This document shows positions 7,076 through 62,100 of a DNA stretch of 64,000 nucleotides, one piece after another (the stretch's first letter is position 1; each line of letters begins with the position of its first letter). Source of the DNA: Sclerodactyla briareus (taxonomy: Eukaryota; Echinodermata; Holothuroidea; Dendrochirotida; Sclerodactylidae); the NCBI GenBank assembly GCA_026419785.1, contig JAODTK010001277.1, positions 1-64,000 on the forward strand, written 5' to 3'. Position numbers and translations under genes: made by a program. The notes under the pieces were generated by a model. It saw only the letters and a program-made list of their open reading frames with translations, ran no database searches and had not been told where the DNA came from.

Positions 7076-7480
7076 CGTGAAGGATATACTAAGCCTTTTG
7101 GGCTTCTGGATCTTCTGGTGTAATCCGTTTATTCAGCACACCACATATATATATTTTTTAAAGCAAGCTGCATGTTTGGGATTCTCTCCCCCCTGCCTAG
7201 GCTGCTGGCTTTATAGTTTATATGGATTTTCCATTTTATGTATTCACTATAAGTGCCCCCATCTACATCTTGAAGTTGCATATATATTCGACCGCCTCGA
7301 GGACTTAAAAGATGACAGTTCTTTTTGTTGGATTGAACAAATAACAACTTGGAAATCAAGCTGTTCAGTGGGTGTGTTACTTTCTGAGCATATCTCTTCT
7401 TTCCTCTCCCCTCAATTGGGAATTTTCTGTATGTGTGAAGGCTACGTGCTGACACAGTTGTATCCTTCGTACTTTCCCAG

Positions 7481-7773
7481 GTTCCAATCTAGAAAGGATC
7501 GCCCAAGAGTCTCATTGGCTCAACCTTCTACGCCCATGAATTCCATGGTGAAGGGGGGCTTGGGAAGATACCCATTCCAGTCCACCCCGAGAAAGAGGTC
7601 CTGTCAGCCAGAGCATGCAGTGATGGCTTTGCTGGAGATGACTAAGAAGCAACCTGGGGAAATAACACTATTGGCCATAGGGCCCCTGACTAATGTGGCC
7701 CTGGCGATTAGGATGGACTCTGGATTCACCAAGCGGTTGAAGAGGCTTGTCATAATGGGTGGCAATACTACAG
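7481..7773 (+). CDS. IUNH-family nucleoside hydrolase, central exon
   Basis: The acceptor TACTTTCCCAG ends at 7480. Translation gives VPI-stop-KGSPKSLIGS, then FHGEGGLGKIPIP, then a one-base shift near 7605, then EHAVMALLEM, PGEITLLAIGPLTNVALAI and LVIMGGNTTG. These are the family's FHGxDGLG, GEITxLAxGPLTNxAxAI and MGGN blocks. A TAG stands where a Tyr is usual (VPVYKG), so it is either a sequencing error or a nonsense change. The exon ends ACTACAG|GCAAGT, which fits the GC-AG donor class; the codon split (G|GT) matches the next exon exactly. The preceding intron carries the antisense LINE. Identification is secure; whether the gene is functional is not. Confidence 0.9.
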
Positions 7774-8093
7774 GCAAGTTCGATTGACATATTTTTGTGT
7801 CTCATAATCATCCGGTTTTCACATCTGAATTCATCCATTTTGAGGTGGGTCAGGTGGTTTATGGGAGCTCTCCCAGATGGCCTTGGCGCTGCATGGTTCA
7901 GGGGGTAGTGGGAATTTCCAGCCTTCAATCTTTCAAGTCTTGTCCTTTTTGGTCTCACCGGAGGAGCAATGCCAGCAACTTGAAAGTTAGCACTCCCCTT
8001 TATACAGCCACCACCAAGCTGAGCATGTCGGCCATACCAAGCGAAGCCTTCTGCCGGACAAGTCCCGGCAAGGAGATTTACACTACTACGCAT

Positions 8094-8277
8094 CAGTGTT
8101 GTAACAAGTCGCAACTTGAGACTTGGGGTCAAAAAGTGTTGGCGACTTAACAAGAATTGAGTGACTTGCTTCCGTTGACTGTGTACAGTGACTTGCCTTC
8201 GAATGACTTGATTTGCACCACATTTTGGTGAATATGACTTCATTTGAACAGATTTCGGTGACTTGGTTACAACTCTG
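8094..8277. mobile_element. hAT-type MITE with perfect 8-bp target duplication
   Basis: The termini are CAGTGTTGTAACAAGTC (left) and the inverted CAGAGTTGTAACCAAGTC (right). They are flanked by identical 8-bp direct repeats CTACGCAT at 8086-8093 and 8278-8285. An 8-bp target duplication with CAG-starting inverted ends is characteristic of hAT elements. The interior is built of GACTTG-type repeats and codes for nothing. At 184 bp it is a non-autonomous MITE. The intact duplication suggests fairly recent insertion. It landed immediately outside a TIR-family terminus. Confidence 0.88.
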
Positions 8278-8285
8278 CTACGCAT

Positions 8286-8345
8286 ACTCAACTTACCCAT
8301 ATTGCAACATTGCATTCTGATTCATTACAATCTGGCAACCGTAGC
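8286..8345 (+). mobile_element. Orphan terminus of GC-rich TIR family
   Basis: The sequence ACTCAACTTACCCATATTGC is followed by a degenerate 'CATTaCAATCTGGCAACC' block. It matches the terminus plus subterminal domain of the elements at 48.45 and 54.6 kb. No matching inverted end was found nearby, so the copy is truncated or its partner has decayed. Confidence 0.5.
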
Positions 8346-12010: not shown

Positions 12011-13360
12011 ACAACCAGTCAACTACACACAAAGTACACTACATACCCACTGACCCCGTATATTAACCTTCAGGTCGGTGGTACAACCATGTGAAGAAAT
12101 TTGATTCATTTTACAAAAGTACACCTAAAGTTAGGTTATAGGCTACAAAGTACAAGTACAACTTCGCAGTTGCCATATCTTCATGGTGCCCACTGCCCAG
12201 GAATTTAGGTCCCAAGGCCCAGTGTGGGCCCATCAAGTGGAATTATGCAATTTACAAATTTTGTTGCACAGTGCTGACATTGGGTCATAATGAATAATGA
12301 TGGTCTAACAGCTGTACCTTTGTGGTGTTCATGAATTTTTTGGTCCAAGGTCCCACTTGGGCCTGTGGGCCCATTTCATGAAACTTCAACAATGGTACTT
12401 GAAATGCATCTCCTCCTCCCACAAGGCTTTCATAGATTTTCTTCGAAAATTACATGTAGCGGTCCTTGGGTAGAGGCCATTAGAGTGGTTTGGGAATTTG
12501 AAACCTAGGCCCATTATGGACTACTGCAAATCTTGTATCTCCTATAAGCTTTGTTGCACAGTGCTCAATGTTCCAATCATATGGTGGTCCAAGTTTCCAT
12601 ATCTTCATGGTGCCCACTGCCCAGGAATTAGGGTCCCAAGGCCCAGTGTGGGCCCATCAAGTGGAATTATGCAATTTACAAATTTTGTTGCACAGTGCTG
12701 ACATTGGGTCATAATGAATAATGATGGTCTAACAGCTGTACCTTTGTGGTGTTCATGAATTTTTTGGTCCAAGGTCCCACTTGGGCCTGTGGGCCCATTT
12801 CATGAAACTTCAACAATGGTACTTGAAATGCATCTCCTCCCACAGCTTCAATTGATTTTCTTCAAACAAACTTACATGTAGCGGTCCTTGGGTAGAGGGC
12901 CATTAGAGTGGTTTGGGAATTTGAAACCCTAGGGCCCAATATATGGAATACTGCAAAATCTTGTATCTCCTACGAAACTCTGTTGCAGTGCTGATGGTAG
13001 TCATAATGATGGTCTAATAGCTGTACCTTCAGGGTGCCCAGGGATTTAGGACCCAAGGCCCAGTGTCACTGCAGCCCATTATGTGGAATATTTATTGACT
13101 GCTAAGACATCTTCGGGCCTATGAAGATCGTGGTCAAAAGTCGGTAAGGGCCACAATAGCCATTTTTTTCAAAACTGCCTTCTTGCCCCGATGATCTTGA
13201 ACATTTATCACATAATTGTACATTCGTCTTGGTATAGTTGTGTGGTTTACGCATGACAGCACCATAGACTGTATAGTCAAAAGACACGATGTGGGAACCA
13301 ACCCGGGTAATCAACTGATGTAATTCACTCAAATAATCTCTATTCCACCTCATTTTCTAG

Positions 13361-22591: not shown

Positions 22592-22712
22592 TTCACATTG
22601 GGCATAGTTCGATTTTTTTCCAGTGTATGCCGAACAAAGACTAGGTCCTCTCGATCTCACAGAAATAAACACCCTGCCACGATGATGAAGGACTGATTCG
22701 CTATTTGCCTGA

Positions 22713-23446
22713 ACCAATCCTGATACAAGACAGACCTTCACTACGTTCTAGTAACCATCCTGATATGGGACAGACTCACTACTTCTAGTAACCATCCTGA
22801 TATGGGACAGACTTCACTATTTCTAGTAACCACCTGATGGACAGACCTTCACTACTTCTAGTAACCATCTGATTATGGGACATACCTTCACTACTTCTAG
22901 TACCATCCTGAGATGGTACAGCCTTCACTACGTTCTAGTAACCATCCTGATATGGGCGAGCTTCACGCATTCTATAACCACCTGATATGGGACAGACCTT
23001 CACTACGTTCTAGTAACCTCCTGATATGGGACAGACCTTCACTACGTTCTAGTAACCATCCTGATATGGGACAAGACCTTCACTACTTTCTAGTAACCAT
23101 CCTGATATGGGACAGACCTTCACTACGTTCTAGTAACCATCCTGATATGGGACAGACCTTCACTATGTTCTAGTAACATCCTGATATGGGACAGACCTTC
23201 ACTACGTTCTAGTACCATCCTGATATGGGACAGACCTTCACTACGTTCTAGAACCATCTGATATGGACAGACCTTCACGACATTCTAGTAACCATCCTGA
23301 TATGGGACAGACCTTCACTACGTTCTAGTAACCATCTGATATGGGACAGACTTCACTACGTTCTAGTAACCATCCTGATATGGACAGACCTTCACTACGT
23401 TCTAGTACCATCCTGATATGGACAGACCTTCACTACGTTCTAGTAA
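22713..23446. repeat. 40-bp satellite, ~18 copies
   Basis: The unit is ACAGACCTTCACTACGTTCT then AGTAACCATCCTGATATGGG. Copies are arranged head to tail and differ mainly by one-base deletions, the pattern expected from uncorrected reads. It lies in the inferred DENND1 C-terminal intron region. Confidence 0.95.
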
Positions 23447-26155: not shown

Positions 26156-26257
26156 TACTAGAGTGCCCAATCATTATTGTATAATTTATATGTGCAATAT
26201 GTGTAAAGAAAATCTGACACTGTCCCACAAGTTGATTACGCCCAGTATGATATGCTC

Positions 26258-26568
26258 ACAACAGTGCAGATTTGTGAACCATTGAACTATGAATACTCTC
26301 CCCATATAGAACTATATAGGACCCAGCACCCCCCCCCCCCCCTTGTGCACTCTGGGCTTCTTTCTTGCAATAAAACCTGGACCAACCCCCCCATATCGCC
26401 CTTCCCATTTTCCCAGGTTCAGTTGAGGCATGGAGGAGGGAGGGGGGGGGGAGAGACTGTACCTCTGTCATGATGTGATGCTAGTGACAAGCCAGAGGTG
26501 GGAAGGGAGGAATGACTGTCCTATATGGGGCGAGTATTCAGAGTTCAGATTACAAACCTGTACTGTTT
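26258..26568 (+). mobile_element. GC-rich TIR family, short copy A
   Basis: Inverted termini of about 50 bases: the left contains CAGATTTGTGAACCATTGAA and TGAATACTCTCCCCATATAG; the right, inverted, contains CAGGTTTGTAATCTGAACTC and TGAATACTCGCCCCATATAG. Just inside the left end is the subterminal block shared by all five family members ('GGGCTTC..CTTGCAA', 'CCCATATCGCCCTTCCCATT', 'TTCCCAGG'). The interior is C- and G-rich and noncoding. I do not recognise a described family. Confidence 0.8.
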
Positions 26569-26569
26569 T

Positions 26570-27975
26570 GCTTGATCTATTTTGGCCTTTCTCTTTGACC
26601 CATGACTCAACTTTGTGAACCATGTTGCTGTAAAGCTCGCTCTATCATTACTATTTTTGGTATCATTGTTTTCTTAGTATTAACCACCACTCAAAATGTA
26701 TTGCTGCAACTTTGCTACCATGCTTATTCCTTCACAATGAAATAATAATTATTGACAAAAAGACCACAATTTCTCATGGAATGTTTCAGAACTTTCAAAA
26801 TATATAGCTGGTATGATGATGATAAATCATGACAATTTCACTGAAAAATGTGATAAATCATGTGTGAGTTGAAGTTCCCCCCACCTTCATGCAAATATTC
26901 TTTTAACGGCCAAAGGCTTATGGGGCAAGCAATGGTGCAAACAATTTTTTTTTAATTAAAATTACAAAACTCATTCAGAGGAACGCCAATTAAAATTTTG
27001 TTGGCACAATATTAACTGTCTGGAATCGTTGCTTGAAGCACAACAACATTAAAACTCCTAATGAGTTTTTGTTAATTTTTGGGAGGAATGAAAAACCCTG
27101 AGAATTCTGTTGTACACAATCACTTCTCATATTTATTCCTTGAGCACAAACAATGCCACAAGGACTGAGTATCAAAACTAGGAGTTTTCATTGTCAGTGG
27201 CAACAGGCCAGCTGATCGCTCATAGTGTTGCTATAACAATTTCGTCTGAATTGTTTCAGCTGAACAACCGCAACTGGATTGCTTCATCTGTCCACTATTT
27301 TATGGTCCTAGACATGGCGGTATTATATGTTCATGTTAGAAGGATTAGCATTGTTTTGTCAAGTTCAATATCCTCTAGGTTTGTACATGTTTTTCTTAGG
27401 ATCTGAGTACATCTGACCCATAGAGTCTATCCTTCTAACTTGAGGAGCTGTGAACCAGTTGTTTCACAGTTCAATTTTAAGGATCGTTAGTGAACACAAA
27501 ACAGAGGGAGTGCTGCATGCATGCACTTCCTCATGTTAACACACAACTTTCCGAATCATGTTCTGCATTTGCTGCATCCCCATAAAAAACTAGCATCGTA
27601 TGAACCAATTTCTCGCCAAAAAATCGACCATGATTTTGCATGGCGCACACCCGCATTGCTTCATAGTATAGGCTGTTGGTAAACCACTGCCATCGTGTTC
27701 CACCCCTAATTACGGAAGGCCAGAGTTATAGTGCAGATACACACTATATCAGGTCCAGGGATTTACCTTGATTGTGTCTGACAAAGCATCATCAAGGCTT
27801 AAATACATTTTTTATGTAGCGAAGGAAATGCTAATTAACATAAGCTTCACTGTAGGGTGCAGGCGAGCAAAACTATAATTGCAAATCACATATAGATCAG
27901 TTTCCAACTGCTTTTCTGTTAGGTAGTATGTATTTCCAGGTGGAAAAATCTTTCATTCTATATTTCTATACTAGG
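26570..27975. other. Nothing recognised
   Basis: AT-rich sequence with only short chance frames. No splice-bounded conserved exon or element ends were seen. Confidence 0.45.
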
Positions 27976-33920: not shown

Positions 33921-34357
33921 CTTTAGGAGAGGACAGATTCATTTGATGGATTTATTACAAATTGACAATTGCCATGTATCGTTGTATATTTGACGGACAT
34001 TGAAGATATTCCAATGTCACCGGGGTAACGATGCAGAGGCGGACCACAGAATTCTAACAGTAAATCGGCAATCTGCTTCACTATAAGAGGAAAGAGGTAT
34101 TTCACATGGAAAAAGAATATTGGTTTTTGGAACAATTCTTGTAAGTTTTTGATGTGAATCCCACCTATAGTTGTCATTTAAAACCCAGGTTCATTGAAAA
34201 GTCCTTGTTGCACATTGACTTCAAATTACAGAAAATTCGGCAGTTCCCCCTTGTCATATCACAAAGGGGAAATTCCAATTGGCCACTCTAACCCACCGTA
34301 TTGGCTGACTCAGATCTCTGAAATCAGTTTTGAGGGTTTGACTTCATGAGTATCGAT

Positions 34358-35386
34358 AATAAATAGGATTTACCAGAATGTCAGGTATGAATAGGATTTA
34401 ATTTACCAGCAGTCAGGTAAATGAATCGGATTTACCAGGAGTCTGTAATGAAAGGATGTCACCCAGAAGTCGGTAATGAATAGAATTTACCAAAGTCAGG
34501 TAACGAATAGGAAAGTCCGGTGATGAAGAGAGTTTCCAGAAGTCAGTCATGACTAGAATTTACCAGAAGTCAGGTCATGAATAGGTTCATTCACCAGAGG
34601 TTCAGTGTAAGAATGGGATTGATCGAAGTCAGGTAATGATTGATTTACCAGAATTCAGATAATGCATAGAATTTACCAGAAGTCAGGTGATGAATAGGAA
34701 TTCACCAGAGTCAGGTGATGAATATAAATTCCCAAAAAGTCAGTACTGAATAAAGAAATTTCCAGAAGTCAGGTAATTACTAGGATTACCAAAGTCCGGT
34801 ATGAATAGATAGGATTACACCAGAAGCAGTAATGAATAGTATTACACCAGAAGTCAAGTAATGAATCGGATTCACGAATCAGGTAATGAAAACAATTGTT
34901 ACCCAGAAGTCAGGTATGCATAGGATTTAACCAGAAGTCAGGTAAGAGTAGGATTATACCAAAGTCAGGTACTGAAATAGGTTTTACGCAGAAGTCGGGT
35001 AATGATAGGTTTAACCCGGAAGTTCAGATAATGAATAGAATTTACCAAAGTCAGGTAACGAATAGGATTTACCAGAAGTCAGGTAATGAATAGGATTTTA
35101 CCAGCAGTCAGGCAATTAAAGTTTAACCAGAAGATCAGGTAATGAATGGATTTACCAGAGGCAGGTAATGATAGAATTTTTACCAAAGTCCCATGTATGA
35201 ATAGGGTTTACCAGAATCAGATAATGAATAGGATTTACAAAGTCAGGTAATGAATAGGATTCACCAGAAGTCCCGGTGATTGATGCATTTAACCAAAGTC
35301 AGGTAATGAGTAGGGATTTCACCAAAAGTCTGTAATGATAGGATTTACCAGAAGTCAGGTAATGAATAGGGCCCTTACCAAAGTTG
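34358..35386. repeat. 28-bp satellite, ~36 copies
   Basis: The unit is about GAATAGGATTTACCAGAAGT then CAGGTAAT. Copies run head to tail, with frequent one-base indels in most units. It lies in a DENND1 intron. Confidence 0.95.
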
Positions 35387-47539: not shown

Positions 47540-48450
47540 TGAAGAGGTTATTCAACAGGGTTCTCACAGTTGTGTCACTATATTTGAATATCCACTCTAT
47601 AGTGTGGGAAAAGGTGAACAACGGAATAACTGGTATCCCTAAATTTGGGAACAGCATTTTGATTCCTGACTTCCCAGGCACACTGTTAGGGGTTACACGT
47701 ACCATGTTACATATCTGGGAAAACTTAGGCACCAGACTGCAGATTGGTTGCATCAATTACGATGGTTTACACCATATTCACAATTTCCAGATTAACTAGT
47801 AGATTCGCAGCACTGCAGATCGTTTGCAGCTGTCAGGTGGGTTACCTATGTTCTACAAACTTCTTGATTAACTCGTAGTACCTGCAGGACCATAGAGGAA
47901 ACTGCAGCTGTTAAGGGAGGGGGGAAAAGTGGGTGGGGGGGGGGGGGTTGTAAAACACTCACTGTCAAAAACTAACAATCTGTTCAAAAGTGAGCAGCAT
48001 TTCACAAATTCTCACCACCCTCCACCCAGATGTGAAGTATGGATTGTTTTCCTACTCTGTTGCTTACACCTTTAGGAGTCTTTACAACCCAACCAGGATC
48101 ATAGCCGTCTAGAGGGTTTTTTTTGGGGGGGGGGAGGGGAATTGTTGGGGGGAGGGAGGGGCAGGGAGGATCGTACACTTTTTCTCATGATGAGGTAAGG
48201 GGGGTGATAGATGAAGCCCCACTAGCAGGCCAACTAGTCGATTGTAGATCTCGAGCAGGAAGCTAGATTCCTCTATCTATGGAAGAGCGAATAAATAAAT
48301 ATGAGAATTCTCACGACTGAGCTTGTTTGATGTGAGGAGTACTTCCTGCGTACAGCAAACTGTTAGAAAAAATAGAAAATCGTTTCATCACAACATTCTA
48401 GGACCGAAAAATGTTACAAGACAGCTGTTGTGCATATTCACAAAACTTAT
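47540..48450. other. Intron, G-rich tracts, no gene
   Basis: It contains G runs at about 47937-47947 and a G-rich stretch at 48124-48170. Opposite-strand open frames of 79 and 86 codons (47517-47799) overlap each other and show no known domain. Confidence 0.45.
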
Positions 48451-48716
48451 GGGTTTGTGAATTGTGGAATACGACTACTTACCCATATTGCACTTTGCAC
48501 CCAACCCCCAAGCCATTGAACATCTGGCAAACTTTTTACAGTAGTAGGGCTGGCAACCCTATCGTCCTTCTTATTTTTTAGGCGAGGCGGTCCAAGGGAT
48601 TGAGGGAGAAGGCCCGCGATCCGACTAAGGAGGACGCCCCGTGAAGGCCCGGAAGTGGGGAGGTTTCTGGGGGGTACGTCCCCAATATGGGTAAGTTGCT
48701 AGTTAATATCCAAACC
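48451..48716 (+). mobile_element. GC-rich TIR family, short copy C
   Basis: The left terminus contains GGGTTTGTGAATTGTGGAAT and CTACTTACCCATATTG. The right, inverted, contains GGTTTGGATATTAACTAGC and AACTTACCCATATTG. Inside the left end lies the shared subterminal block: CATTGAACATCTGGCAAAC, ACAGTAGTAGGGCTGGCAA, CCCTATCGTCCTTCTTATT. This block matches, in inverse orientation, the right end of the large element that begins immediately next door. It is about 266 bp and noncoding, and looks like a MITE-sized derivative of the large copy. Confidence 0.82.
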
Positions 48717-49559
48717 AGTAAGTTTGTGACATCTATTTCACTTACTCAACTTACCCACATATTGAACTTTGCACCAGACTAGCCAGGGCCACTGGAGGCG
48801 GGTCCCGTGCCGTCACGAGAGGGGTGTGGCGGTTGTAGGATGCAGAGCGCCCTCGTGCCGGTAGCCTGAGACTGTGCTGGAGAAGCAGCATGAAACGAAC
48901 GTGTGTGGTTAACCCCACAGACGCTCGAATACCGTCTCCGCGAGAAGCGTAGCTCGGGAGAACGAGGAGGGCCGACTTCCGGATCAGTGACAACGGGTAG
49001 TGCACATGTGAACCGAGCGAAACCCCTGCTAAGAGATAGCGGCCTTGCACGGCTCTCTATCCCACGGACTGAGAAAGCCTTCGATGCCTGAGAGAAAAGC
49101 TGACTACTTAGGAAGAAGAGTTGAGTGTGTTAACGAACGAACTTCGTATTCAACCCAGGTAATGTGCCGTGACCGCACGGACACCACACCTGACTCCTCC
49201 AAACCGTGGATAGATTCCGACGGAGCAGAAGAGAGGGAAGTCTCTTGACGCGATGTGAACCGACCCACGGACCGCACGTGGGGTCGACCCCCCCACCGCC
49301 CTCGAAAGAGCTGGAACTGGTCGAATTGGCGAAAGGGTAGGTGCCGCGGCTGCGGACCGAAGGATTGGGGCGTGTACCAATCTGGCACGGGGAGGGCCTA
49401 AAGGGTCGGATCACGGGTGGGCCCACCCATCAGTGGGAGAGTCGATTGGGCTCAAGTGAGGCCAGAAGAAGGTCGGAGGCCCGATCCTATGCCGGTAGGG
49501 CCGGACCTCACTAGGAGGGCAGGGAGAGTCGGATTACGGCTATGGAAGCTCGGTATGAA

Positions 49560-49619
49560 CCAATCCCAGGGGATCGATGCCAAGGGAGCCGGCAGGAAGA
49601 GTTGGGACAGTGTCTGGAA

Positions 49620-49651
<32 letters not shown>

Positions 49652-50330
49652 GGGGGGGGGTTAGGCAGCTCGATCCTCGGCTCGGTTAGAGCTGCATCTC
49701 ACCAGGAGGGCAGGACAGAGTTGACCTGTCTGGTGAGCGGAGGGTCGATCCTCGGCTCTGTAGGGCGATCTCACACAGGAGGGCAGAGCGTCGGGCTCCG
49801 GCTATGCAAGCCGGGATGAGCGAACCACTGCGCAGGGGAGCTTGCTTGGTGCTTGAAGAGGCGAGCCGCTGGCTACAGGGGACGGGAAAGTCGAAACGCG
49901 GCTCGGGGGGGTTTGATCTGGACTCAGGAGATGTCACGGAGAGAAGTGGGATGAAGGCTCCGGAGGGGTCAGGTAGGGCAAACCCTCGGCCCGGGAAGAG
50001 CCGTCGGGCCCAGGCCGGATGATAGATGTCAGGACACGGAAACTGAAACCGGGCAGGGAAGGCCGACATCGGCTCGGGAGAGGCCCATCTAAATCGGAGG
50101 CCGAAGAAGTCCGACCCACAGCCCGGGAGAGGGTCGGAAGAGGTCGACAAGGCTCTAGACGGGCCCGACAGAGACGGTTCACGGCTCTGGAGAGCCTACC
50201 CACGGCACCGGAGGGCAGACCCGGTTGGGGAAGGCCGGGGTAGGACGGTTCACGGTCTGAAGGGCAGACCCGCTCTGGAGTCTTAGTGAGACAGTCCCGG
50301 CTAGGAACCGGAACACACCACACCACCGTG
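49560..50330. repeat. Degenerate GC-rich repeats inside element D
   Basis: Motifs 'CGGCTCGGGAGAG', 'GAGGGCAGA' and 'CGGCTcTGgAGAGC' recur every 50-70 bases with much divergence. A G run (about 49620-49650) interrupts them. This is a decayed array rather than coding sequence. Confidence 0.5.
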
Positions 50331-50395
50331 CACTCCGCTGATCAGAGCGGGTCGGCTAGGCCGGTCTGTAAAAGGGCCGGCTTTATGGAGCACGG

Positions 50396-50720
50396 CTACC
50401 TCGGGGTTAGAGGTTGACTCCGTAAATGGGCGGACGGTTTGTCTCTCAGCGAATGGGGCGGGTCGGTCGAGCGGAACGTGATGATTCAGGAAAAACGCGT
50501 CGCGTGAAGGTCGATGACTGCGTTGGTGGTAAGCCATGGGATCCAGGAGTAGACGGCAGAGGTCTGCAGAAAGCCACGCTAACTCGGGGTGTGAGCCGGC
50601 TGCTCGAAACGGGCCGTGGTTCGCTCTCAGCGGGAACAGGGCGGGTAGATCGAGCGACAGTGCATGGCTTGGGAAAGGCGTGCGACGTTGAAGGTATAAG
50701 GGTGAATGCGCCAACGAAGG
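50396..50720 (+). repeat. Diverged ~182-bp direct duplication in element D
   Basis: 'TACCTCGGGGTTAGAGG' ... 'CTCTCAGCGAATGGGGCGGG' ... 'TCGAGCGGAACG' at about 50396-50500 recurs as 'TAACTCGGGGTGTGAGCC' ... 'CTCTCAGCGGGAACAGGGCG' ... 'TCGAGCGACAG' at about 50578-50685. Confidence 0.65.
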
Positions 50721-52339
50721 AATAGGGTCAATGGAGAAGTAGGGACGAGACCTAACTCAGCGGAGAACGAGAACGCGGAACGTCGGCGAGACTGGCTACT
50801 CGTCAAGTAGGCATAACAAGGCGAGACGTAGTCGGCCAGCCCAAACTACGGCAGTATATGCCGGCGTTTCCGTCGTCTGAGCCCCCATATCTTCAGTAAG
50901 CTGTCTCTGTAGGCGAGCCCTCTAGAGTATCGGCTACGGAGCAGATGGAGCGAGAGTGGGGCCTGGTTACCGCAACCGAGGGAAGGTAGCCAAGTGCTTA
51001 TCTCCCCCGGTAGCAGTACGCTTGGAAGCCCGACCATGACCGGAATAAAGGACGTGGTCCTCAAATGGCAGCGGTTGTTACGTGTTACGTCGATAGTGGA
51101 GCCTGCAACCCTACGCCCCGGTGCTTCCCGCACGGGGGGGGGGGCGGCAGGCTAGATAGGAGTCCTTTCGCCTGCGAACAATAGTAGTCTTCCAGCATAC
51201 ATGGCCTCCGCGAAGCCTGCTGATTCTCTTTAAAAGAGATCCGAATCTGGCAGGGGTGGCGCTCTGGGTGGCGGCAGCAAACCACGCCGGTGACCCGAGC
51301 GGTCCATAGTCTACGCGAGGAGGCTTATACGTCTGACGTAGACGTTTGGGGGAGACTCAAGTCGGCTCCCTTCAGGGGACTAATTTATTCAGTCCCACTA
51401 GCCGCACTTCTTCGAAAGATCCCGCGAGGAGGCCCCGGCCCGCGATTGGATGGCTTTGGGAATGAAGCAAAGCCTTACCGAACGGGGCTGGCACCAGGAC
51501 CGGTGCGCTGTCCGTGCGGCCTTAAGTCACCCGCGCTCAAGTCGGACAGACGGGCCATGGATGACGGAGGGCAACGGAAACAACGAACGAGATTAGAGCC
51601 ATTGAAAGCAAACAGACAGTATGAAAGTCTGCTCCCGAAAGTAGTAACATGTAGGAGAGGGGACCGAGAACAGTCTCTGGCGATGCGGGACATGAACAAA
51701 GGTCCGTCGCTGAAAAAAAAAGAGGACCGCCAGCGCTAAGTCTCGCTCGAGGTTGATCGGGGATACCCAACGGCACCACTAACAAGGGGATGTGTCCATC
51801 CGACCCCTTGGGACTTCGGGGGTAATAGCCTCGCCGTATGGGTGTAGAACACACTGCCACTTGAGTCGCAATGTCCTGACAGAGAGACTCCGGCGGCTAC
51901 GGGCTGTTTCGGACGGATGCTCGTACCCCGGAGACCTCCGAGAGATCTCGGTATGGGGAGGAGTCCTGTCGTCTTCCCCCCCTCTTGCCGGAACCCAACA
52001 GCTGAAGTTCCGGAGGGGCCGTCGCGGCCTCACCTCCCCTAAGAGGAGGCCCGGGAGGGTCCGGGAGCGTCAAGCCGTACGCGCCCCGGAACGTCGGCCG
52101 TTCTAAACTGTCTGAAAAACCAGAACAACGGTTGAGAAACATCGCCCCGGAGGGCTCGCGGCTTGGCTATCCAATGTTAACTTCTCTGCCTAGCCGCTAT
52201 CCGAATCCGAAGCCCGCCGAGACACTTCTGGGAGATGTTGCGATGTATTGTTGTAGGCGTGCTGTAGGGCTTGGATGCATCCCTGGTCCCCTGGATCCCC
52301 GGTCCCCTGGCGCTGTGGTCTGACGCATGAGCGTACCGG

Positions 52340-52870
52340 CCCCCCTGCCGGATCCGCGGGCCGCGGGACCGGTCCCGAAACGCACTCGTCGGGGACCTCC
52401 GGGGCCGTTTAGAGGTGTAACCCCACCCATCGGAACGGCTGGGCCGGCCCCGACCTTGCATGTCGGGACCCCCGGGCCCCGTTCCCGAGGTTGTAACGGA
52501 CCAACCGTCTCGGGAAATGGCTGGGCCGGCCCCGACCCGACGCTTGTCGGGACCCCCGGGCGTCCCGAGGTTGTAACCACACCCCGATCGGACCCGGCTG
52601 GGCGGCCCCGACCTCTCTGTCGGGACCTCGGGCCGTCCCGAGGTGTAACGACACTCCGTCCGGACCCAGGCTGGGCGGAAACCGACCTCTCCTGTCGGGA
52701 CCCCGGGCCGTCCCGAGGCTGTAACGAAACCCAGTTAGGACCGGACAGGGCCGGCGCGGACCTAACCGTCGGGCTGGACCAGGCAAAAGAACGAGCCACC
52801 CCGATGCGTCGGCCCGACCTCCACTGTAGGACATCAGGACCGATCTTGAGGTGTAACGACACCCCGTTTA
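52340..52870. repeat. ~75-bp hairpin repeat array in element D, ~7 copies
   Basis: GTCGGGACC recurs near 52388, 52462, 52546, 52619, 52694 and 52768. Each unit has a CCCGACCT...GTCGGGACC hairpin, a CCCGGGCCGTCCCGAGG block and a GTAACGACACC spacer. Spacing is 73 to 84 bases. The self-complementary GC-rich units resemble ribosomal spacer enhancers in style, but no rRNA sequence is present. Confidence 0.85.
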
Positions 52871-53249
52871 GGGTCCGGCGCGGAGGGGGGAAGGGACCAG
52901 CAAGAGCGGCCTAATCGAGTCGAGACGAGCAACCTCGGCCCGCCCCGACGGATTTAGGTCATGCTACCCAGGCTCATGCCTGTGGGACTTACGCGTGCTA
53001 AAGAGACCTGCCCACGGAGCCCCGGAAGGGGCAAGCTCGGGAACGGTCCCTTTCTTCGAGCGCCCCCATATCACTGGGTCTTCTGTGCCGTCGGTAGGTA
53101 GTCTCGTTAGACAAGGCGGACGGGGCCTCACAGCGTTCCCTCTGTCCCCAGGTAGCGATATTATGCCGGAAGTCCGGTAAGCGACACAACTTTCCGTATC
53201 CTGCGGAAGGGAACTCCCGTACGGAAAATCCTTCAGGAGTATAACTCCT

Positions 53250-53960
53250 CCCGAACGATATTACAATAACAATATCACGATAGGGAATCAATTCCGGACA
53301 TATCATGGAATGTGATATGTATCATACGAGTGTATTGCGTATAGATGATACAAAATTACATAAATCAGCGATACGGAAACTATTTATTCAAGGGGATTAC
53401 TCATCCCGCACGCATATACAATCACAATCACAACATAGGAATCACTTCCTTGACATGAATGTGATATGTGATAATACGAGGTATTGCAGGCTAAGATTAT
53501 ACCAAAATACATAACATCAGCCGAGAACGAAAACGGATGAAATGTGATATTATAATACGAGTGTATTGCCAGAGGTATTAGGATTATACCAAAATACTAA
53601 ACAACAGCGATAACCGACCAGTACCCCATTAGTGATATCACAGTAGGAATCATTCAGACCTGATATGCGAGATGTATAATACTAGTGTTATGCGGTAAAG
53701 ACTATACAAATTACATCACGGCCGGTTAACAATATCACCAAAGAATCACTTCCGACATGATAAGCGAAATTGTCATAGCCGAGTGTCTTGCAGTATAAGA
53801 ATATACCAAATACAAACCCTCCAGCCGATAAGGAACGGTATACAAAAGCAAATATCACAAGACAGGAATCACTTCCGGAATGATGATGCGACAGTCATAA
53901 ACGTAGTGTATTGCAGTAAGACTATACAAAAACAAAGTAATCGGCCGGGGGTAACGAAAC
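53250..53960. repeat. ~115-bp repeat array in element D, ~6 copies
   Basis: Units contain 'AATATCACnATAGGAATCAC', 'TTCCGGACATGATATG', 'TAATACGAGTGTATTGCAG' and 'ACTATACCAAAATACATAA', spaced about 80 to 150 bases by indels. It is AT-richer than the rest of the element. Confidence 0.8.
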
Positions 53961-54640
53961 TAAGCGAAAAGACGAGTTAACTTAGAATCAGCCAAGTTAA
54001 CGAACAAAGTATCCACCATTCCCACGCTCTCACCAGTCTTGCGTAACATTCCCTAGCCGCCGCGCGCGGAGAGAGAGACACACCCCCCCAGGAGAAGGGG
54101 ACAGGGAGCGGAAGGGGGAAAAACCAAGGAAGGAGGGAGGGAGGGAAGGGGGGGAAGGGCTCAGCTAGGGAAAGAACAGGACAACCGTCCAGCTACTGAC
54201 CGAACACAATCGGGAGCCCACCCACCCGCGTGTGGTAGGCTACGGGGGAAGCCATCCACAACCCTATTGTGCTAGGACCAGCTTAGGCTAAATATGACTT
54301 ACGCAAAACGGGACTCGAGCGGGAGAAAAATCCCAAACCAATATCACGCAAAACGCTAAGGATAAACATATCCTGATAGATGACGTCGGAAGAAAAATGC
54401 TCCTAGCAAGATTGTGAATGTCGATTGAAAGCAGTGGGTGATTTTCGGCGATGAAAATCGATGAAATTCGTAGCCAAGATGCTCATGAACGTTAAACGTT
54501 CAACTGGCAAACTGAGAAGGACGATAGGTTTGCCAGCCCGGACTACTGTTAAAAATTGCCAGATGTCAATGGCGCGGGGTGGGGTTTGTAAAGTTGCCAT
54601 ATGGGGTAAGTTGAGTAGTGAAATGGTGACAATGTTTGTC

Positions 54641-55890
54641 GAGGCATTAAAACAAAAAAGTAAAACTGCCCCAAGGAGGGGGTCTTGGCTATTATGAGCC
54701 TTAGCAAGGCAGGCAGTTCCTATGGCAGGGAGGGGATAGGGGGATCATCCGGAAACAGGGATTGCATGCCCAACACACAGAAAAGAACCTCTGCAGATCG
54801 GGAGGCCAGACGCTTTGGACCAGGGGTCCTAATTTCTTCAAGCTTGCACTAGTAAAAGAAGTGCTTTTCCTCAAGGGCTCAGAATCGGTACAATCATAAT
54901 GGACCTCTCAAACATATTGTTCTAAAGCATGCCTAGAGCATCATGGCACTCAAATATAGTTGTTTGTTTCAAAGGGGTGGGAAGCACTTACCATCACAAC
55001 GGATTTAAATCATGATTCTGCTATTTGGACACTATTTTTATTTTCAATTTATTGCTCCCATCATGCTCCTCTCTTCAACTGTTTAAATACTGAAAATTAT
55101 GGAAGAGCCATGCAAGAAGCGATATATAAACATAAATAGCATTTCAATTTATGGATGTGAAAATCTGTTCAGTAATTAATGAAGGGCAATACATTCAGTT
55201 GGGAATGAATAAATGCTCATTTGTAAATTATTATAGAAATCCATTCTGGACTACATTGGACAAATTAATGCTCTGTTTTCATAGGCGTGTTTAGATGAGG
55301 GATAAATTTTATTATCACTCGGTACGTCCAGAGTTGCTTCTGATCCCGAAAATAGATTAATATTAGCATTGTAAAAATAACCAAACAGTTTACAATTTAA
55401 AAAAAATCATCCCCAAAACCAGAACATAGCTTTATGATCTATTTTTACTCTCCAATTTGAAAATGTGATTTTCAAAAACTGTAGCAAATCGGATGCTGAA
55501 ATTTATAGCTCATCCCAAACAGGTGATGAATATCATCTTAACTATGTGGAAGGTGGTTAAGCCAAAACCAGCCTATTATGACAACAGAGTAGAGAACATT
55601 GCTGGATTTATTAAAGTTGTCTATACTATGATATAACAGGCATGTTAAATATGTATAATGGTAGCAAGTACCAATGCTCACCACTCCTAAGCGGGTAAGG
55701 GGTATAGACGGAGAGGGGATTCCCCCCATAGCTATTAGGGATTCCCCCCATCGACTTAGCATTGTCACACTCTTTCAAAAGGTGTTTTACTATGTTATTG
55801 TTTTTCTATTTCCTGGCAGGAGGGGGGCGTAAAAAAATTTGAAAAGTTTTCTTGACTGTGGAGCATGTAAAGCTTGTCCGACAGATCACC
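54641..55890. other. AT-rich intron spacer between TIR elements
   Basis: Returns to ordinary AT-rich intron composition between the giant copy D and short copy B. No exon or other element was seen. Confidence 0.55.
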
Positions 55891-55895
55891 AAAAA

Positions 55896-56171
55896 AGAAT
55901 AGGTTTTCGGAATCTGTGAATTTAAGAATACTCACCCCACATGGAACTATGCACCCACCCCTTGCCACGTCCAGCTTCTGGCAAGAACACAAAATGCGGG
56001 GGTAGGCCATCCCATCGCCCTTCCAATTTTACCAGGCTAGGCGTCAACCGGAGAGGGCTCAGAGCCCGAAGGGTGCGCACGTGATGGCAGGAAGCGCGGA
56101 CAGGAAGGGCGCGGGGGAAAATCCATGTGGGGTAAGAATTCATAAATTCACAGATTCCCCAAACCTGTTCT
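55896..56171 (+). mobile_element. GC-rich TIR family, short copy B
   Basis: Inverted ends of about 50 bases: the left has AGAATAGGTTTTCGGAATCT then GTGAATTTAAGAATACTCACCCC; the right, inverted, has AGAACAGGTTTGGGGAATCT then GTGAATTTATGAATTCTTACCCC. Just inside the left end is CCAGCTTCTGGCAAGAACAC then CCCATCGCCCTTCCAATTTT and ACCAGG, the same subterminal block as in copy A. The right arm is CpG-rich. It is noncoding, about 276 bp. Confidence 0.85.
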
Positions 56172-59100
56172 GTTTGGGTGCACCAATCCTAACTCATTAT
56201 TCAACTTACCCCACAGGCTAGCACAGATTAGCACAGGGACCGGCGGGGGCGGGTGAGTGCCATCCCGCTGTTTTAGTCTGAGGGTGGACGTTCACGGAAC
56301 AAGTTCTGACGACACCAATTAACATCAGTCGTTAGAGCCATAACCCCTGTGGTGCTCGGCCGGGATGCATGGCCGAGGTCACCACCGGGGAAGGACCTCG
56401 CCAGGCCTCCGGCCGCAGAGACCCGGGGCAGGCCAGCCGAAAACGCGACTCACGCGGTGGTATCAGTCCACCGGGGGAGCGGAGTTCCAGGCGAGCGTGG
56501 TCGCGTCCCGACGCGCTCGCTCCGCGTCAACCGTCCCCAAGCTGCGCCGGGAACCACAAAAACTTGCTTGACGTCGAGTCAAGAATGAAAACGAGTCTTC
56601 GGCCGGACCTCTAACGCGGCACAACTGCGATAGCATCGAGCCATGCTTCCGCATCGAACGGTATGGGTGGAGACCCCAAGAGGAGAGCGGCGTTTAGAAA
56701 AAAGCGCCACCACGCTTGTACCCTGAAGGCCCGCATCCGCAGCGCCCGCTGGGGAAAAAAAGGGGGGCCCAAGCAGCAGCGGCACCCAGTTCCCAAATGT
56801 CACTCAGCGGCGGCTGGGTGACATGAGCCCAGAGGAGACAAAGGGTTGATTAGCGATTGCTGCGGCTACTGCTGCCTGCTGTTGTGGGAACTCCCCAAGG
56901 CTCTCTGGAGTCTGGTCCCAGCGGCGAGCGCTCCCCCTCGAGGAGACGCGTGGACGCAGGACCGGGGGTGACCTGGCCTACGCCGCTTCCTTCGCCGCTC
57001 GAAAATGGCGCCGGCCCGAAGCTGGGTCAGTGTTCGGTAGACGCAGAAGGGGGTGGAGAGGCTGCGGCCGGGGCCGCGAGCTGGTTGGTTGGCTCCAGCT
57101 TGGTATAGTCGGCCGGGAGGACTGCTGCTCCCGTCCCTGTCTGACTGTACACGCGCGGTGGGCACAGCTCTGGCTGTGGAGGGAGGCCAGGAGAACTGCC
57201 CGCAGGGAGCCATGAGACCACCTGGAACAAGGAGATGCACACCCGGGGGCGATCCAAAAGGACATCCAGGGTTTTGCTCGTTGCACTGGCCGACGGCTGC
57301 TGCTGCTGCACGGACCGTGCCGTTGCTTCCAGCTGGGCCCCTGGATTCCGAAGCCATGCCATTTGCAGCACCATACTCACCCTCCATTTCTGTTCTGTTC
57401 CGAGCCGCGAGTCCAGTCTTCAACTGTGCTCATGAGTTTTCTGAGCCGTGATCCACTCTTCCGAGCAGCGATTGGCCCTGTATTCATGGGCGGGTTCTAG
57501 CAAGTCACGGCCGGCTTAGCGGGCCGCGAGCGGGCTCAGAACCGTCGCGGCTCTGCCGATACGTAGCTCTACTGAGCCGTGACTGGCTCTACCGGACCCA
57601 TGGGGGGGGCCGGGCCAGCTACTACCGGGTTCAGGGCCAGTACAAGTGAGCCGCAGGTCGGCCCTGCCGTGGGCCCCTCTGCCAACCGGGGAGGTTGGGT
57701 CGCCCGAGCCAACGATTTGTGTGGATTTTGGCGGCCATCTCGCGGGCTTGATTCCGCGGGCGGTCCCTAGAGGACATCATGAAGGCCTTGCCGAGCATGG
57801 GCCGGCTCTGCGAGCGCGGGGTCGCTCTACCGAGCCTGGAGTGGCTTCCGACTGAGCCGTGTGGACCGGCATCTATGTGAGCCATGGGTGTAGGTCTGCC
57901 ATGCATGGTTTCGTCAGACTCTGCCGAGCAGTGGGTCCGCTCTGCCGAGCCATGGACCGGCGTCTGCCAGGCCGTGGGTCGGCGCTGTCTGGCTGTGGCT
58001 CGGCTCCGCGTGAGCAATTTGGTCCCGGCTCTGCCGAGTCGCTTGGTGGTCAGCTCTATCGTTAGCCGTAGGTCGGCTCGCCGAGCCTGGCTTGGCATCT
58101 ACCGAGCCGTTTTTGGTGGACCCTCCCAGCAGACTCTGCCGAGCCGGAACGGCGATGCCGAGCCGGTGGCCCCGGCTGTACGAGCGTTAGATGGCTCAAT
58201 ACCGGAGCGTGGTCGGCTCGAGGCTCTGCCGAGCGTGGGTCAGCGATCTGGCTCTCGGCCAGGCAACGCCGGGACAGCCCGTCGCCCCAGCTCACCGACG
58301 GCGGATGCCGCGGCGGCAGGCGTGTCGCCCGCAGAGGGGCCCGGGCGCAGACAAGGCGACACGGGAGATTCTCCCAGGGGGCCTAAGAGCATTATGCGAG
58401 GCCGCCAACGGGGCCATAACCGGTCTTCTCGGCGGCTCGCCCGCTCCGCGGCGCCTGGAAAAAGGCTTGCAGCTCTCTAGCATCTTCCTGGAGGCATGGT
58501 CCCGCCGGACGTCGTCCTGGCCTGGCGCCGTCTCCCTTAGCGTTGGCGGTGAACCTGAAGTCGCAGTTTGTTGGAGTTTCGCGGACGCATCTGGTCCGTC
58601 CCGAGTTGGTCCCCAGCCCGCTGGTAACCCCTCCCCGGCTCCAGTATCTTCGAATCCCCAGGCCCTGAGGGTGGTAATTTTCCCAGGCCCGGTTGAGACA
58701 CCGCCCCCCGGTATACGGGAACAAAACAGCACACCGCCGCGGCAACTAACCACGGCCTCCACGAGCCACCGGGACATCCGGTATCCAAAGCTCGGATAAT
58801 CCCTAAAACGACCCGCTGTATTAACTACGATCACACCAATCCACGGAACGTCCGTAGCCAAGGCCTCGTTAATGATGAATGACGACCACAGCACAAGGAG
58901 CTGTGCTGGAATTTTCCGTGAGAGAAATGGAAGTTACGTGAATCAAAACAATTCTCCCACGGCCAAAAATCTTGTTATGCTACACGAAGATTCGAAGCAT
59001 CCTCCGTAGAAAAACTAAGAAATCTACTGGGAATGACACGGCGACCATACTTTTGGCCGCGCGTCCCCCGAGGGAAAGTTTTCCGAATTCCCCCGCGCAA

Positions 59101-59738
59101 GCTCTTTTTGAACGAAATTCGCTCGTGGCGCCGCCACCCCCCCCCGCTGCGAGGCCAAACAACGAAAACCGGCGACCCTAAAAGGTCCCCAAACCTCCGG
59201 TGAAGGGAAGGGGAACAGGAACCAAGGGCAGGCAAAGGGCGGTACGGGGAGGGAAGGGTAGAGGGGTGGGCCTCGGGAATACACCCGAACGACATAGAAG
59301 CCACGCGGTCCAGGCGCTAGGGCTAGGCCTGCATACCGCGTTAGTGTTAGGCTAGCTGCCAGTACGCAAAAACTACAGCGAGGTAGGAAGCTAGGCCTAA
59401 CGCCCCCGCATGGAACGGGCGGTAGAGAGTACTTAAAACCTTTCAAAACTCACCTAAGTGGAGAGATACCTGAACGAAAGGTGACGAAAACGCTGACAAA
59501 TTCCCGCCAACGTAAGAAAGAATATAGAAAGCCAGAAAAACGCTACTAGGAACGATTTTTGGGCGAAACTCTTACAGCCAAAAACTGCGAACGAAACTCG
59601 ACACTATCCTGGCAAAAAGAGAAGGCGATGGGGTGGCCAACCTGGCATTTGTGTATTGCAGAAGCCGACGTGGCATGGGGGGGGTGCCATAGTCCATTGG
59701 GGTAAGTTGAATATATGAGAAGATTCCGTGCAACGTGC
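56172..59738 (-). mobile_element. GC-rich TIR family, large copy E (~3.6 kb)
   Basis: The left terminus is GTTTGGGTGCACCAATCCTA then ACTCATTATTCAACTTACCCC. The right, inverted, is GTTGCACGGAATCTTCTCAT then ATATTCAACTTACCCCAATGG. The family's subterminal block lies inside the right end (inverted: CACGTCGGCTTCTGCAATAC, TTGGCCACCCCATCGCCTTC, TTTTTGCCAGG), so the orientation is minus. Its left interior (GCACAGGGACCGGCGGGGGC) resembles that of element D. The interior is GC/CpG-rich with a ~21-bp tandem array. Overlapping frames of about 200 codons on both strands are not supported as genes. It starts where short copy B ends. Confidence 0.82.
57470..58230. repeat. ~21-bp GAGCCGTGGGTCGGCTCTGCC array in element E
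   Basis: The consensus is GAGCCGTGGGTCGGCTCTGC plus C, with more than 20 degenerate copies (GAGCAGTGGGTCCGCTCTGC, GAGCCATGGACCGGCGTCTG and similar). Spacing is mostly 19 to 28 bases. The unit is partly self-complementary (GAGCC...GGCTC). Confidence 0.8.
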
Positions 59739-59749
59739 GAACTGGGGGG

Positions 59750-62100
59750 ACAGTTTACACCTATGAACCTTTGACACCATATAATTATTACTCTTTATGG
59801 TAACTGTTTAACATAGGCCACACATAATGAACTCCTCCACTTGTTCTTCCCCCATAGAGAATTTTGCCCTATGACCGTGAGATGATCACATCTGGGAAAT
59901 CATAAGCTTTCTCCTGTTTGCACCATTCACACCCTTCACACAGCTAACTGGCAAGTGGCAACCCAGTGTAACTACCCACCCCCATATTAATAACTAGATA
60001 CTGCTAGGGTCATAGGCCGAACAGGCATATATGGCAACACAGTAGCAAAATACGCCTGCTCTTCATAGAGTTGCACAGTGAAACCCTATGGCCTTCCTTA
60101 AGCAACTCACCTTACAATGGAAAACCATATCGCGAGTCCCATGCCACAAAACACACATGAGTTCCTGTAATGCAATATAAAACAAAAGTTAGCTGTTCAC
60201 ATGCCTTCCTTCCTACTCTCCTGCAGCTTGCACTCCAGTTTTTCCACTTTTTATATTTCGGCAGATTATTGGAAGGCAAGCTCGTTCACATGCCTAATAA
60301 GTCTGTTCATGGTTGCGAGTGCACAGTCTCCACTGCTAAGCAGCTTCAGGAGTATAGACACGATAACCCTCCCTTCCCCCCTCCCCCCTTATTTCCTCGT
60401 GGGCATACTGTTACAGCCTAGGTCTGAAATGGTCACCACATGTTATCAGAAAATTTATCTTTATATCACAAGTTTCACTGGGCTACTGCTGTATGGGGCA
60501 AATCTGTGAGATACTGTGCTTTAGGTATTGATTTTGTCAGGTGAGTTTCCGGGAAGATGAATCCTCAGCAATGTGCAATATCAACAGCCAGATATCCTCT
60601 ATGACCTTGACACCAGATCATTATTACGTACCATGAACAGAGGCCTCTTGCTAATACACAATTGTGTGAAATGTATTCAATGTTAGATCCATATTCAGTC
60701 AGTCTCCTTCATAAAGCCCAGTTTCGGAGTTGCGCATGGGCATTTGAGCAATTTGGTCCAGTTTTGTGAAACTTTCTCACCGTGCCCGTTCCCGTCCATA
60801 TGTGTTACTGTGTGTCTCCTGAGCTCGCCAAATTATTCAGTAAAAAATTCAATAACTTTTGTTTAGAATTCAACTTACCTAACAAATATTAACATCAATT
60901 CGAAGGTTTCTAGAGCACGGATAACTCTGTGATATTCCTCTGTGGAGAAAAGGAATTAACTACTGTAGGATTAAGACTAGCTCATTGCACGAAAGCCAAA
61001 AGGCTTAGTGATATCCTTGACTGCACGATGGGCATTTGATCGCAACAATGGGAGTTTTTGACCCCATTGTGGGGAATCAACATACTGCGTATGAGTTTCA
61101 AATCCATCATGTTATTGTGTCACTGACCAGGATTCACATGACAGATACATAATCATCCATACAGCACGGCCTCATATATGGGCATAGCTGCCATGTTTTC
61201 CTGGATTTCCAGGACCCAATGAACCACACCCTGAAAGCATGCTGTTCTTTATAGAATCTTCAGTTCAAAATTGGAATCTGCCAATCTGACAGTAATTCAG
61301 TCATGATGGCAATGCCAGTGTACTCCAATTTGACTTTGTGATCTTTTGGGGTCCATTAATTCACGCCATCGTCATGATATTATACAATCTCACGAAGTTA
61401 TCGAATATCCCCAGTAACTTAGATTGAATAGACCCCCCCCCCCTCAGGGTTGCGTGAGTAATCGATCGCCCGATGGGGGCTCATGCTCCTGTATGGGGGA
61501 GGGTTGGGTGGTACCCTTCTCTACCCAGATGGGGACCCCACTCTTCTTGTGGGTGAATGTTTCCCTCTCTGTCAGGCTAGGGAGGGACATTTGTTGGGTA
61601 TAGCGGGTTGCTTGGGTGTTGTCATTTCCCAAAACTTAATGGTTTGGGTATTAACGAGCGACTAAGCGTCCCGCTAATTAGGCAGTTTGCCCTATTAACT
61701 CACCTTATTGGGGCAGTTTTACATTTACAAACCCACCCTACCGTCCGCCCAACTCTATGCATAATTAGGAACGAACAAGCCTCCTTCTATGACTTGACTT
61801 CCTACGTTATCGTTTATATTTTTTCTGGACCCAATACCCTGGATTTACCATTGTCTTTATAGGATTATTAAGTGGGGATTATAACATTTTGCACAGAATT
61901 TCCTAGAGGATTTTTGAGATGAAAACTCTCACTCTTCTACATTAGCTCGCGAGAAGGTTACTTGGGAGCGCAGTGAATTATGGTGACAATGGCAGCAGTA
62001 ACCTGTTATTGTCCTGAATGGCCCATCACTTGGGTAAAGAAGTCTGATGACTAATCATTTCTTTGTAATATAATACATACTGCGAAATAAGTAAAGGCAC
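59750..62100. other. Intron, nothing recognised
   Basis: AT-leaning intronic sequence. Candidate minus-strand exons near 60300-60400 and 60550 were inspected and not supported. Confidence 0.5.

Follow-up and report, generated by a model that had tools for sequence, protein, structure and literature searches.

The first 64,000 nucleotides of contig JAODTK010001277.1 from the sea cucumber Sclerodactyla briareus (hereafter the window, on the contig labeled C1271 in our searches) raise the question of what kind of mobile DNA produced its five segments with related, inverted ends. A reading made from the sequence alone described these segments as one family with terminal inverted repeats (TIRs), consisting of three copies of the size of miniature inverted-repeat transposable elements (MITEs), named A, B, and C, and two giant copies, D and E. 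The data showed that the window contains two composite mobile units, C+D and B+E, and one broken third, A. Hence, the family proposed in the sequence-only reading was recovered, while its copy boundaries were not, because none of A, B, and C stands as a copy on its own. Tentatively, and with somewhat less than even confidence, we explain the units as non-autonomous Helentron/Helitron2-like rolling-circle elements with a second, aberrant insertion route.

Each unit consists of a left module of ~290 bp adjoining a GC-rich module of 3.5–5.9 kb, and the two modules meet in an inner join, at ~48729 in unit 1 and at ~56181–56185 in unit 2. The left end of the unit is called T1 (TTCACAAAACTTACTGGTTTGTGAATCTGTGAACTACGAATACTTACCCCATATTG), and the right end, read inward, T2 (AATCTATTTCACTTACTCAACTTACCCCATATTG). 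In unit 1 the T1 profile matched positions 48436–48589 and the T2 profile 54478–54624; the right edge given below is an inferred one, and the window copy departs from its family beyond 54624. Unit 1 is drawn on the minus strand, on the assumption that T1, which bears the hairpin, is its 3′ end. The features are as follows, with the evidence in brackets where it applies.

48437–54629, minus strand: unit 1 (C+D), composite mobile unit (join recurrence, end-profile matches)
48437–48729, no strand: left module C, with the T1 end and block, and T1′ at the join (sequence, end profiles)
48437–48462, plus strand: terminal hairpin of T1, TTCACAAAAC..GTTTGTGAA (folding against shuffles)
48477–48577, plus strand: subterminal block with core, inverted copy of 54509–54611 (82% over 106 columns)
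48713–48770, no strand: internal join T1′.T2, which reads in reverse complement as two ends abutting head to tail (sequence, profiles, genome pattern matches)
48730–54629, minus strand: large module D, bounded by T2 on each side, its noncoding cargo rich in GC and with degenerate tandem repeats
52392–52763, no strand: ~75-bp GC-rich tandem repeats within D (tandem-repeat scan)
53240–53960, no strand: degenerate direct repeats within D, AT-rich and CpG-rich (self-comparison; limits from sequence)
54480–54624, minus strand: block and T2 end of unit 1 (genome search, pattern, profile)
55886–59725, minus strand: unit 2 (B+E), diverged composite unit (profile matches; edges from sequence)
55886–56181, no strand: left module B of unit 2, its right-end hairpin changed on both sides (CCCAAAC..GTTTGGG)
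56182–59725, minus strand: large module E of unit 2, GC-rich noncoding cargo
26256–26612, no strand: A, what is left of a third and diverged copy, with the left module and a join remnant but no cargo (profile E = 3.7e-20)

The copies of the family were sought in 319 Mb of the genome (3171 contigs). A 171-bp query from the right end of D gave 611 candidates, of which 40 were scored, and 20 loci chosen among the best 28 were fetched (10 kb each). Since these loci were picked from the top scorers for the end of D, the sample is biased toward the T2 end of the D family. GC-rich cargo was present in 14 of the 20 loci and absent at the other six (L031, L035, L036, L037, L039, and L045). At 13 of the 14 cargo loci a C-like module adjoined the cargo module, as in the window; the join was seen in the searched copy at 12 loci, and at L050, where no T1 was seen in the copy found by the search, in a neighboring copy ~6 kb off. 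At L049 the join was lost through an internal deletion. The recurrence of the join at 13 of 14 loci shows that C+D is one unit. The left module of L038 is ~825 bp long instead of ~290 bp, and the outer T1 edge of L033 was unreadable.

Pattern searches with up to three mismatches found T2 at 306 genome sites, T1 at 42, and the 5′ cargo at 64, and the reversed-pattern control of each found 0 sites; the counts are not directly comparable, because the patterns differ in length and sensitivity (the 5′-cargo pattern recovers 9 of 13 known copies). The T1 and T2 pattern matches abut at C2254, C2883, C329, and C2067, while T1 lies ~290–300 bp ahead of T2 at C498 and C2838. These data agree with the proposal of a multi-copy family. 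A keyword search of the literature, which involved no sequence comparison, returned nothing recognizable as these ends. L050 (C1951) has two T2 ends at a distance of ~6 kb, and the flanks past them agree over ~111 bp, so that a segment including the element may have been duplicated. A variant of the T2 end, GTAGAGTAGG, recurs at C87, C1435, C1478, C1506, C2134, and C2137, and may mark a sister family.

The extent of B, E, and A was compared with a piecewise profile of the C+D family, built from 12 other copies with the window copy excluded. The profile continued from B into E (55909–56267, E = 1.6e-29), matched the last 520 bp of E (59206–59725, E = 2.8e-13), and covered A, extending beyond its right end. 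The middle cargo of E had no match to this profile at E ≤ 0.1. Since the ends of E are matched and its middle is not, the two-part architecture is older than the cargo. One further genome match was found for A, the locus L052 (82% over 57 bp). We read L052 as a small element bounded by T1 and T2, and L053 as a small element that has T2 on both sides and adjoins a T1′-like remnant. Another diverged T1 end was observed at L029 (C1546, 1128–1287, E = 2e-13), with a T2 end ~740 bp away. Very weak matches to the family profile in the window, at 8275–8341 (E 0.004–0.09) and 61624–61746 (E 0.0016), are possibly old remnants or chance.

The two ends of the unit have a common core, which is followed by the block. 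The shared core of the sequence-only reading was confirmed by a 17-base piece, which had four matches with at most three mismatches in the window, against 0.28 expected in shuffles; these were the right end of D, both ends of B, and the left end of E, while A and C were beyond the mismatch limit. The one-sided subterminal block was also borne out, as C matched the right end of D at 82% and B matched that of E at 79%. On the other hand, the ends are not the paired, equal TIRs that had been described. The common core starts ~23 bp deeper at T1 than at T2, and since T2 lacks these outermost ~23 bp of T1, the unit as a whole does not terminate in inverted repeats. Equal inverted repeats at the very termini, which are expected of MITEs, were thus not found, although the small L053 does carry T2 at both ends. 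The extra ~23 bp of T1 fold as a hairpin; none was noticed at T2, which was inspected by eye. In the window the T1 hairpin had a stability of −10.0 kcal/mol, and 2 of 60 mononucleotide shuffles were equally stable. In 24 of 43 hairpin rows 0–3 of 60 shuffles were equally stable and in the remaining rows more, where some rows represent one hairpin read on both strands and one row (L049 9724) is not T1.

The edges of the units read TTCAC... and ...ATAGATT. As judged by eye, TT is present at the T1 edge in all 14 readable D-family copies (13 fetched, including the L050 neighbor, and the window copy), and of the 14 cargo loci 12 have GATT at the edge of T2. The canonical Helitron ends (5′-TC...CTRR-3′ in A^T) were not observed, with no CTRR seen by eye on either strand. 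The inner join T1′.T2 is the reverse complement of T2′ leading into T1. Among 14 joins (13 loci and the window), the seam has two to three Ts in 10, four in one, and no T run in three; since two complete ends would give four, the Ts at the join seem to be shared.

The large modules are sharply bounded islands of GC and CpG. D has a GC content of 0.57 and a CpG observed/expected ratio of 0.95, and E has 0.61 and 0.92, as compared to 0.42 and 0.51 in the host bulk and a CpG ratio of 0.35 between the two units. D contains several unlike degenerate tandem arrays, while E contains short ones, including ~21-bp degenerate repeats at 57920–58004. A composition trough like that at 53240–53960 of D (GC 0.34–0.42, CpG ratio above 1.2) was present in 11 of the 14 cargo loci. 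These data support the earlier description of the cargo as GC-rich, noncoding, and repeat-bearing, but not the proposal that D and E are foldback-like. Foldback/TU elements have inverted ends and variable length, and their inverted repeats are built from tandem repeats. In contrast, the repeats found here are direct and lie in the cargo, and when D and E were compared with themselves, no inverted repeats were detected inside either.

The coding capacity of the cargo was analyzed by comparing six frames of D and E (with X at stops) and ten open reading frames (ORFs), eight of them within D and E, to Pfam. No frame or ORF of D or E had a protein family above the curated cut-off, so protein-coding cargo was rejected, in agreement with the earlier view that the elements have no transposase of their own. 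The matches to DUF222 (E = 0.0012), DUF3649 (0.017), and SpaA_4 (0.2) in E and D were below the cut-off and were taken as chance. The longest open frames in the majority columns of 13 copies were of 302 (inside GC-rich repeats), 271, and 262 amino acids. No RNA families or tRNAs were found in D and E, RNA folding of the two end regions was hardly more stable than that of shuffles (z −1.4 each), and a viral-contig pattern scan found nothing.

The copies differ from their majority sequence by 10–20% substitutions and by 161–261 indels each, and because of these indels scans of single copies for coding sequence are weak evidence. Transversions exceed transitions in 11 of the 13 copies, the exceptions being L033 and L040. 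CG was retained nearly as well as GC (0.780 versus 0.802), which indicates that CpG decay, expected for old methylated DNA, is not the cause of the copy scatter. The scatter may result from assembly noise, misalignment, or absent methylation. Noise from the assembly of GC-rich repeats has to be taken seriously as a possible cause, and it weakens all statements about coding capacity and age.

The manner of insertion was analyzed with an anchored direct-repeat test at both edges of 12 full-length and six truncated copies, against 18 mismatched pairs, which had a maximum score of 5.5. The test excluded L033 and L050 (an unreadable left edge and two similar right flanks), L036, which has an internal deletion, L002, the two units of the window, and short loci with left ends outside the sequence examined. 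No target duplication was detected in 11 of the 12 full-length copies, which scored at or below the null maximum. The truncated copies retain T2, and their truncation points vary between reference positions 5545 and 5807. Direct repeats flank four of the six, of 39 bp (perfect) at L031, 51 bp at L039, 79 bp at L045, and 28 bp at L026, while L035 and L037 showed none in this test. The two classes differ with Fisher p = 0.022, in a small sample; the truncated edges were set by visual inspection, in some cases after the repeat had been noticed, and this favors the truncated class. At L002 (C2993:204877–208018) two tandem truncated copies have the same perfect 84-bp sequence between and after them, which may reflect a tandem duplication. 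T2 occurs unpaired in the truncated copies, an observation which the sequence-only reading had itself set against its claim of paired ends; we read these as one-ended copies.

Rolling-circle elements are favored on the combined evidence of the asymmetric ends, the hairpin at one of them, the TT edges without duplication, the tandem repeats inside, and the join that resembles a circle junction. According to this explanation, T2 would be the 5′ end, at which copying starts, and T1, whose terminal hairpin lies beyond the inverted core, would be the 3′ end and signal copying to stop. The units would insert into TT without target duplication, mobilized in trans by a Rep/helicase. The inner join would be an inverted copy of the head-to-tail junction of a circle or tandem intermediate, so that a rearranged tandem would be the ancestor of the composite. 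The T2-only copies could have arisen when copying halted early and the free end was sealed by host repair, leaving the 28–79 bp direct repeats.

Several observations weigh against a rolling-circle origin. The hairpin is located 0–2 nt from the T1 edge and not 8–35 nt inside, as the palindrome of a Helentron/HINE would be from the 3′ end, unit 1 of the window has no GATT at its T2 edge, and TT is missing from the T1 edges of the diverged copies A, B, L052, and L029. The full-length L041 scored 28 in the direct-repeat test and has a ~98-bp flanking direct repeat, which may consist of host monomers, because one alignment continues past the edges. The small copy L052 is perhaps flanked by a 6-bp repeat, AAACTC, which would favor cut and paste. 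Truncated copies with direct repeats of 28–79 bp are not known as a product of rolling-circle transposition, and fit either target-primed reverse transcription or the repair of one-ended insertions by the host. A Rep/helicase element sharing these ends was not found; Helitron_like_N (PF14214) had three matches on two contigs, C2413 and C2926, neither of which is among the contigs of the T1, T2, and cargo matches listed (100 of 306 for T2). The missing TT edges and L052 lowered our confidence in the rolling-circle explanation from even to somewhat less than even. A more specific form of it is quite unlikely, in which a distinct rolling-circle lineage transposes as the relic of a tandem whose circle junction is inverted, kept in two diverged families with 3.5–6 kb of CpG-rich noncoding repeats. 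Such a lineage would spread by two routes, precise insertion of the whole unit into TT and insertion by one end, with long target duplications as its trace.

It is somewhat unlikely that the units are cut-and-paste DNA transposons of an undescribed or unrecognized superfamily, with long subterminal inverted repeats, a short target site duplication (TSD; TT, or perhaps 6 bp at L052), and truncated copies as repair by-products. The inverted core and ~100-bp block at both ends, the TT at both edges of the D family, the possible AAACTC repeat of L052, the internally deleted copies L036 and L049, and L053 with its two T2 ends are consistent with this explanation. However, it does not account well for the outer ~23 bp of T1, which are unmatched at T2, for truncated copies that retain a single end, or for full-length copies without a consistent short duplication.

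The truncated copies first raised the idea of a LINE/Penelope-type element (LINE, long interspersed nuclear element), in which a LINE-like enzyme would recognize T2 in RNA and produce 5′-truncated copies with long TSDs, and the full unit would be a long noncoding template. The constant T2 end, the varied truncation points, and the direct repeats at both edges of four of six truncated copies are as expected of LINEs and short interspersed nuclear elements, and the perfect 84-bp repeat of L002 could be added to them if it is not a tandem duplication. The idea was demoted because TSDs are lacking at the full-length copies, with one in 12 showing a repeat, and a retroelement is now considered unlikely. 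It is also at odds with the inverted core at both ends, with the absence of a poly(A) or simple-repeat tail past T2 in all 20 fetched right ends, as judged by eye, and with the absence of a reverse transcriptase domain in D or E, which is weak evidence in such noisy copies.

It is very unlikely that two side-by-side elements with separate TIR pairs, one from a small family (C/B/A) and one from a large family (D/E), were joined once and then copied together. In favor of this are the T1 ends on both sides of C and the T2 ends on both sides of D, the small T2..T2′ element L053, and three T1/T1′ pairs, at C993, C1369, and C3079, with no match on their contigs to the 5′-cargo pattern (which finds 9 of 13 known copies). 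Against it, C and D have the block in common in inverted order, L052 as we read it is a small T1..T2′ element, and the join recurs in the diverged B+E.

Returning to the rolling-circle explanation, the units fit Helentron/HINE and Helitron2 elements, although we do not file them as members of either. According to PMC4067079, the subterminal inverted repeats of Helentrons and HINEs lie 2–4 nt from the 5′ end and 38–60 bp from the 3′ end, close to which there is also a palindrome; the TT target is left unchanged, the Ts at the edges vary, and some copies contain tandem repeats. The units resemble HINEs/DINE-1 as described there in being noncoding, in their asymmetric subterminal inverted repeats and palindrome near one end, in the TT preference with variable edge Ts and no TSD, and in the inner tandem repeats of some copies. 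They differ in their size of up to ~6.2 kb, GC and CpG richness, ~100-bp inverted block, hairpin at the extreme end, recurrent T1′.T2 join, truncated copies with long direct repeats, and diverged copies without a TT edge, and in that no Rep/helicase partner was found. The asymmetrical terminal inverted repeats are similar to those of Helitron2, which in the same text has palindromes at both ends, while here one was noticed at T1 only, with T2 inspected by eye. The Tsp transposons of Strongylocentrotus purpuratus (Cohen, Liebermann and Kedes 1985), cited as DINE-1-like in that text and compared here through this citation only, are likewise a heterogeneous echinoderm mobile family with tandem repeats.

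The Pacific oyster Cg_HINE, described in PMC7492417, has satellite-like tandem arrays between conserved flanks and inserts into TT without a TSD, while the units described here carry several unlike degenerate arrays in a 3.5–6 kb cargo and have a two-module architecture. The primate retro-DNAs, described in PMC11195612, are DNA-transposon copies with retrotransposon-type TSDs, which is similar to the truncated copies; they have poly(A) tails and no TIRs, while the copies here end at T2 and are tailless. The available part of the Holothuria glaberrima genome preprint gives totals of transposable elements only (PMC13228809). Such large noncoding elements raise the questions of what purpose a GC-rich, CpG-intact cargo has and how satellite-like arrays disperse in echinoderm genomes. 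If the rolling-circle explanation is true, the inner inverted junction would preserve the trace of a circular or tandem intermediate in its sequence. The truncated copies with long direct repeats would then be natural examples of rolling-circle elements inserted by one end, a step which is otherwise hard to observe.

The window also contains features outside of these units. Two tandem copies of a 424-bp unit with 90% matches are located at 12168–13040, a 39-bp tandem repeat of ~19 copies at 22712–23446, and a 28-bp tandem repeat of ~36 degenerate copies at 34357–35370. A broken remnant of a LINE-like reverse transcriptase with shifted frames is located on the minus strand at 4838–6404 (RVT_1 E = 0.013, below the cut-off). 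A nucleoside-hydrolase exon at 7077–7784, the one exon by which a holothuroid host was judged likely, has its closest named matches in the sea cucumbers Holothuria leucospilota (70%) and Apostichopus japonicus (66%), followed by the sea urchin Diadema (59%).

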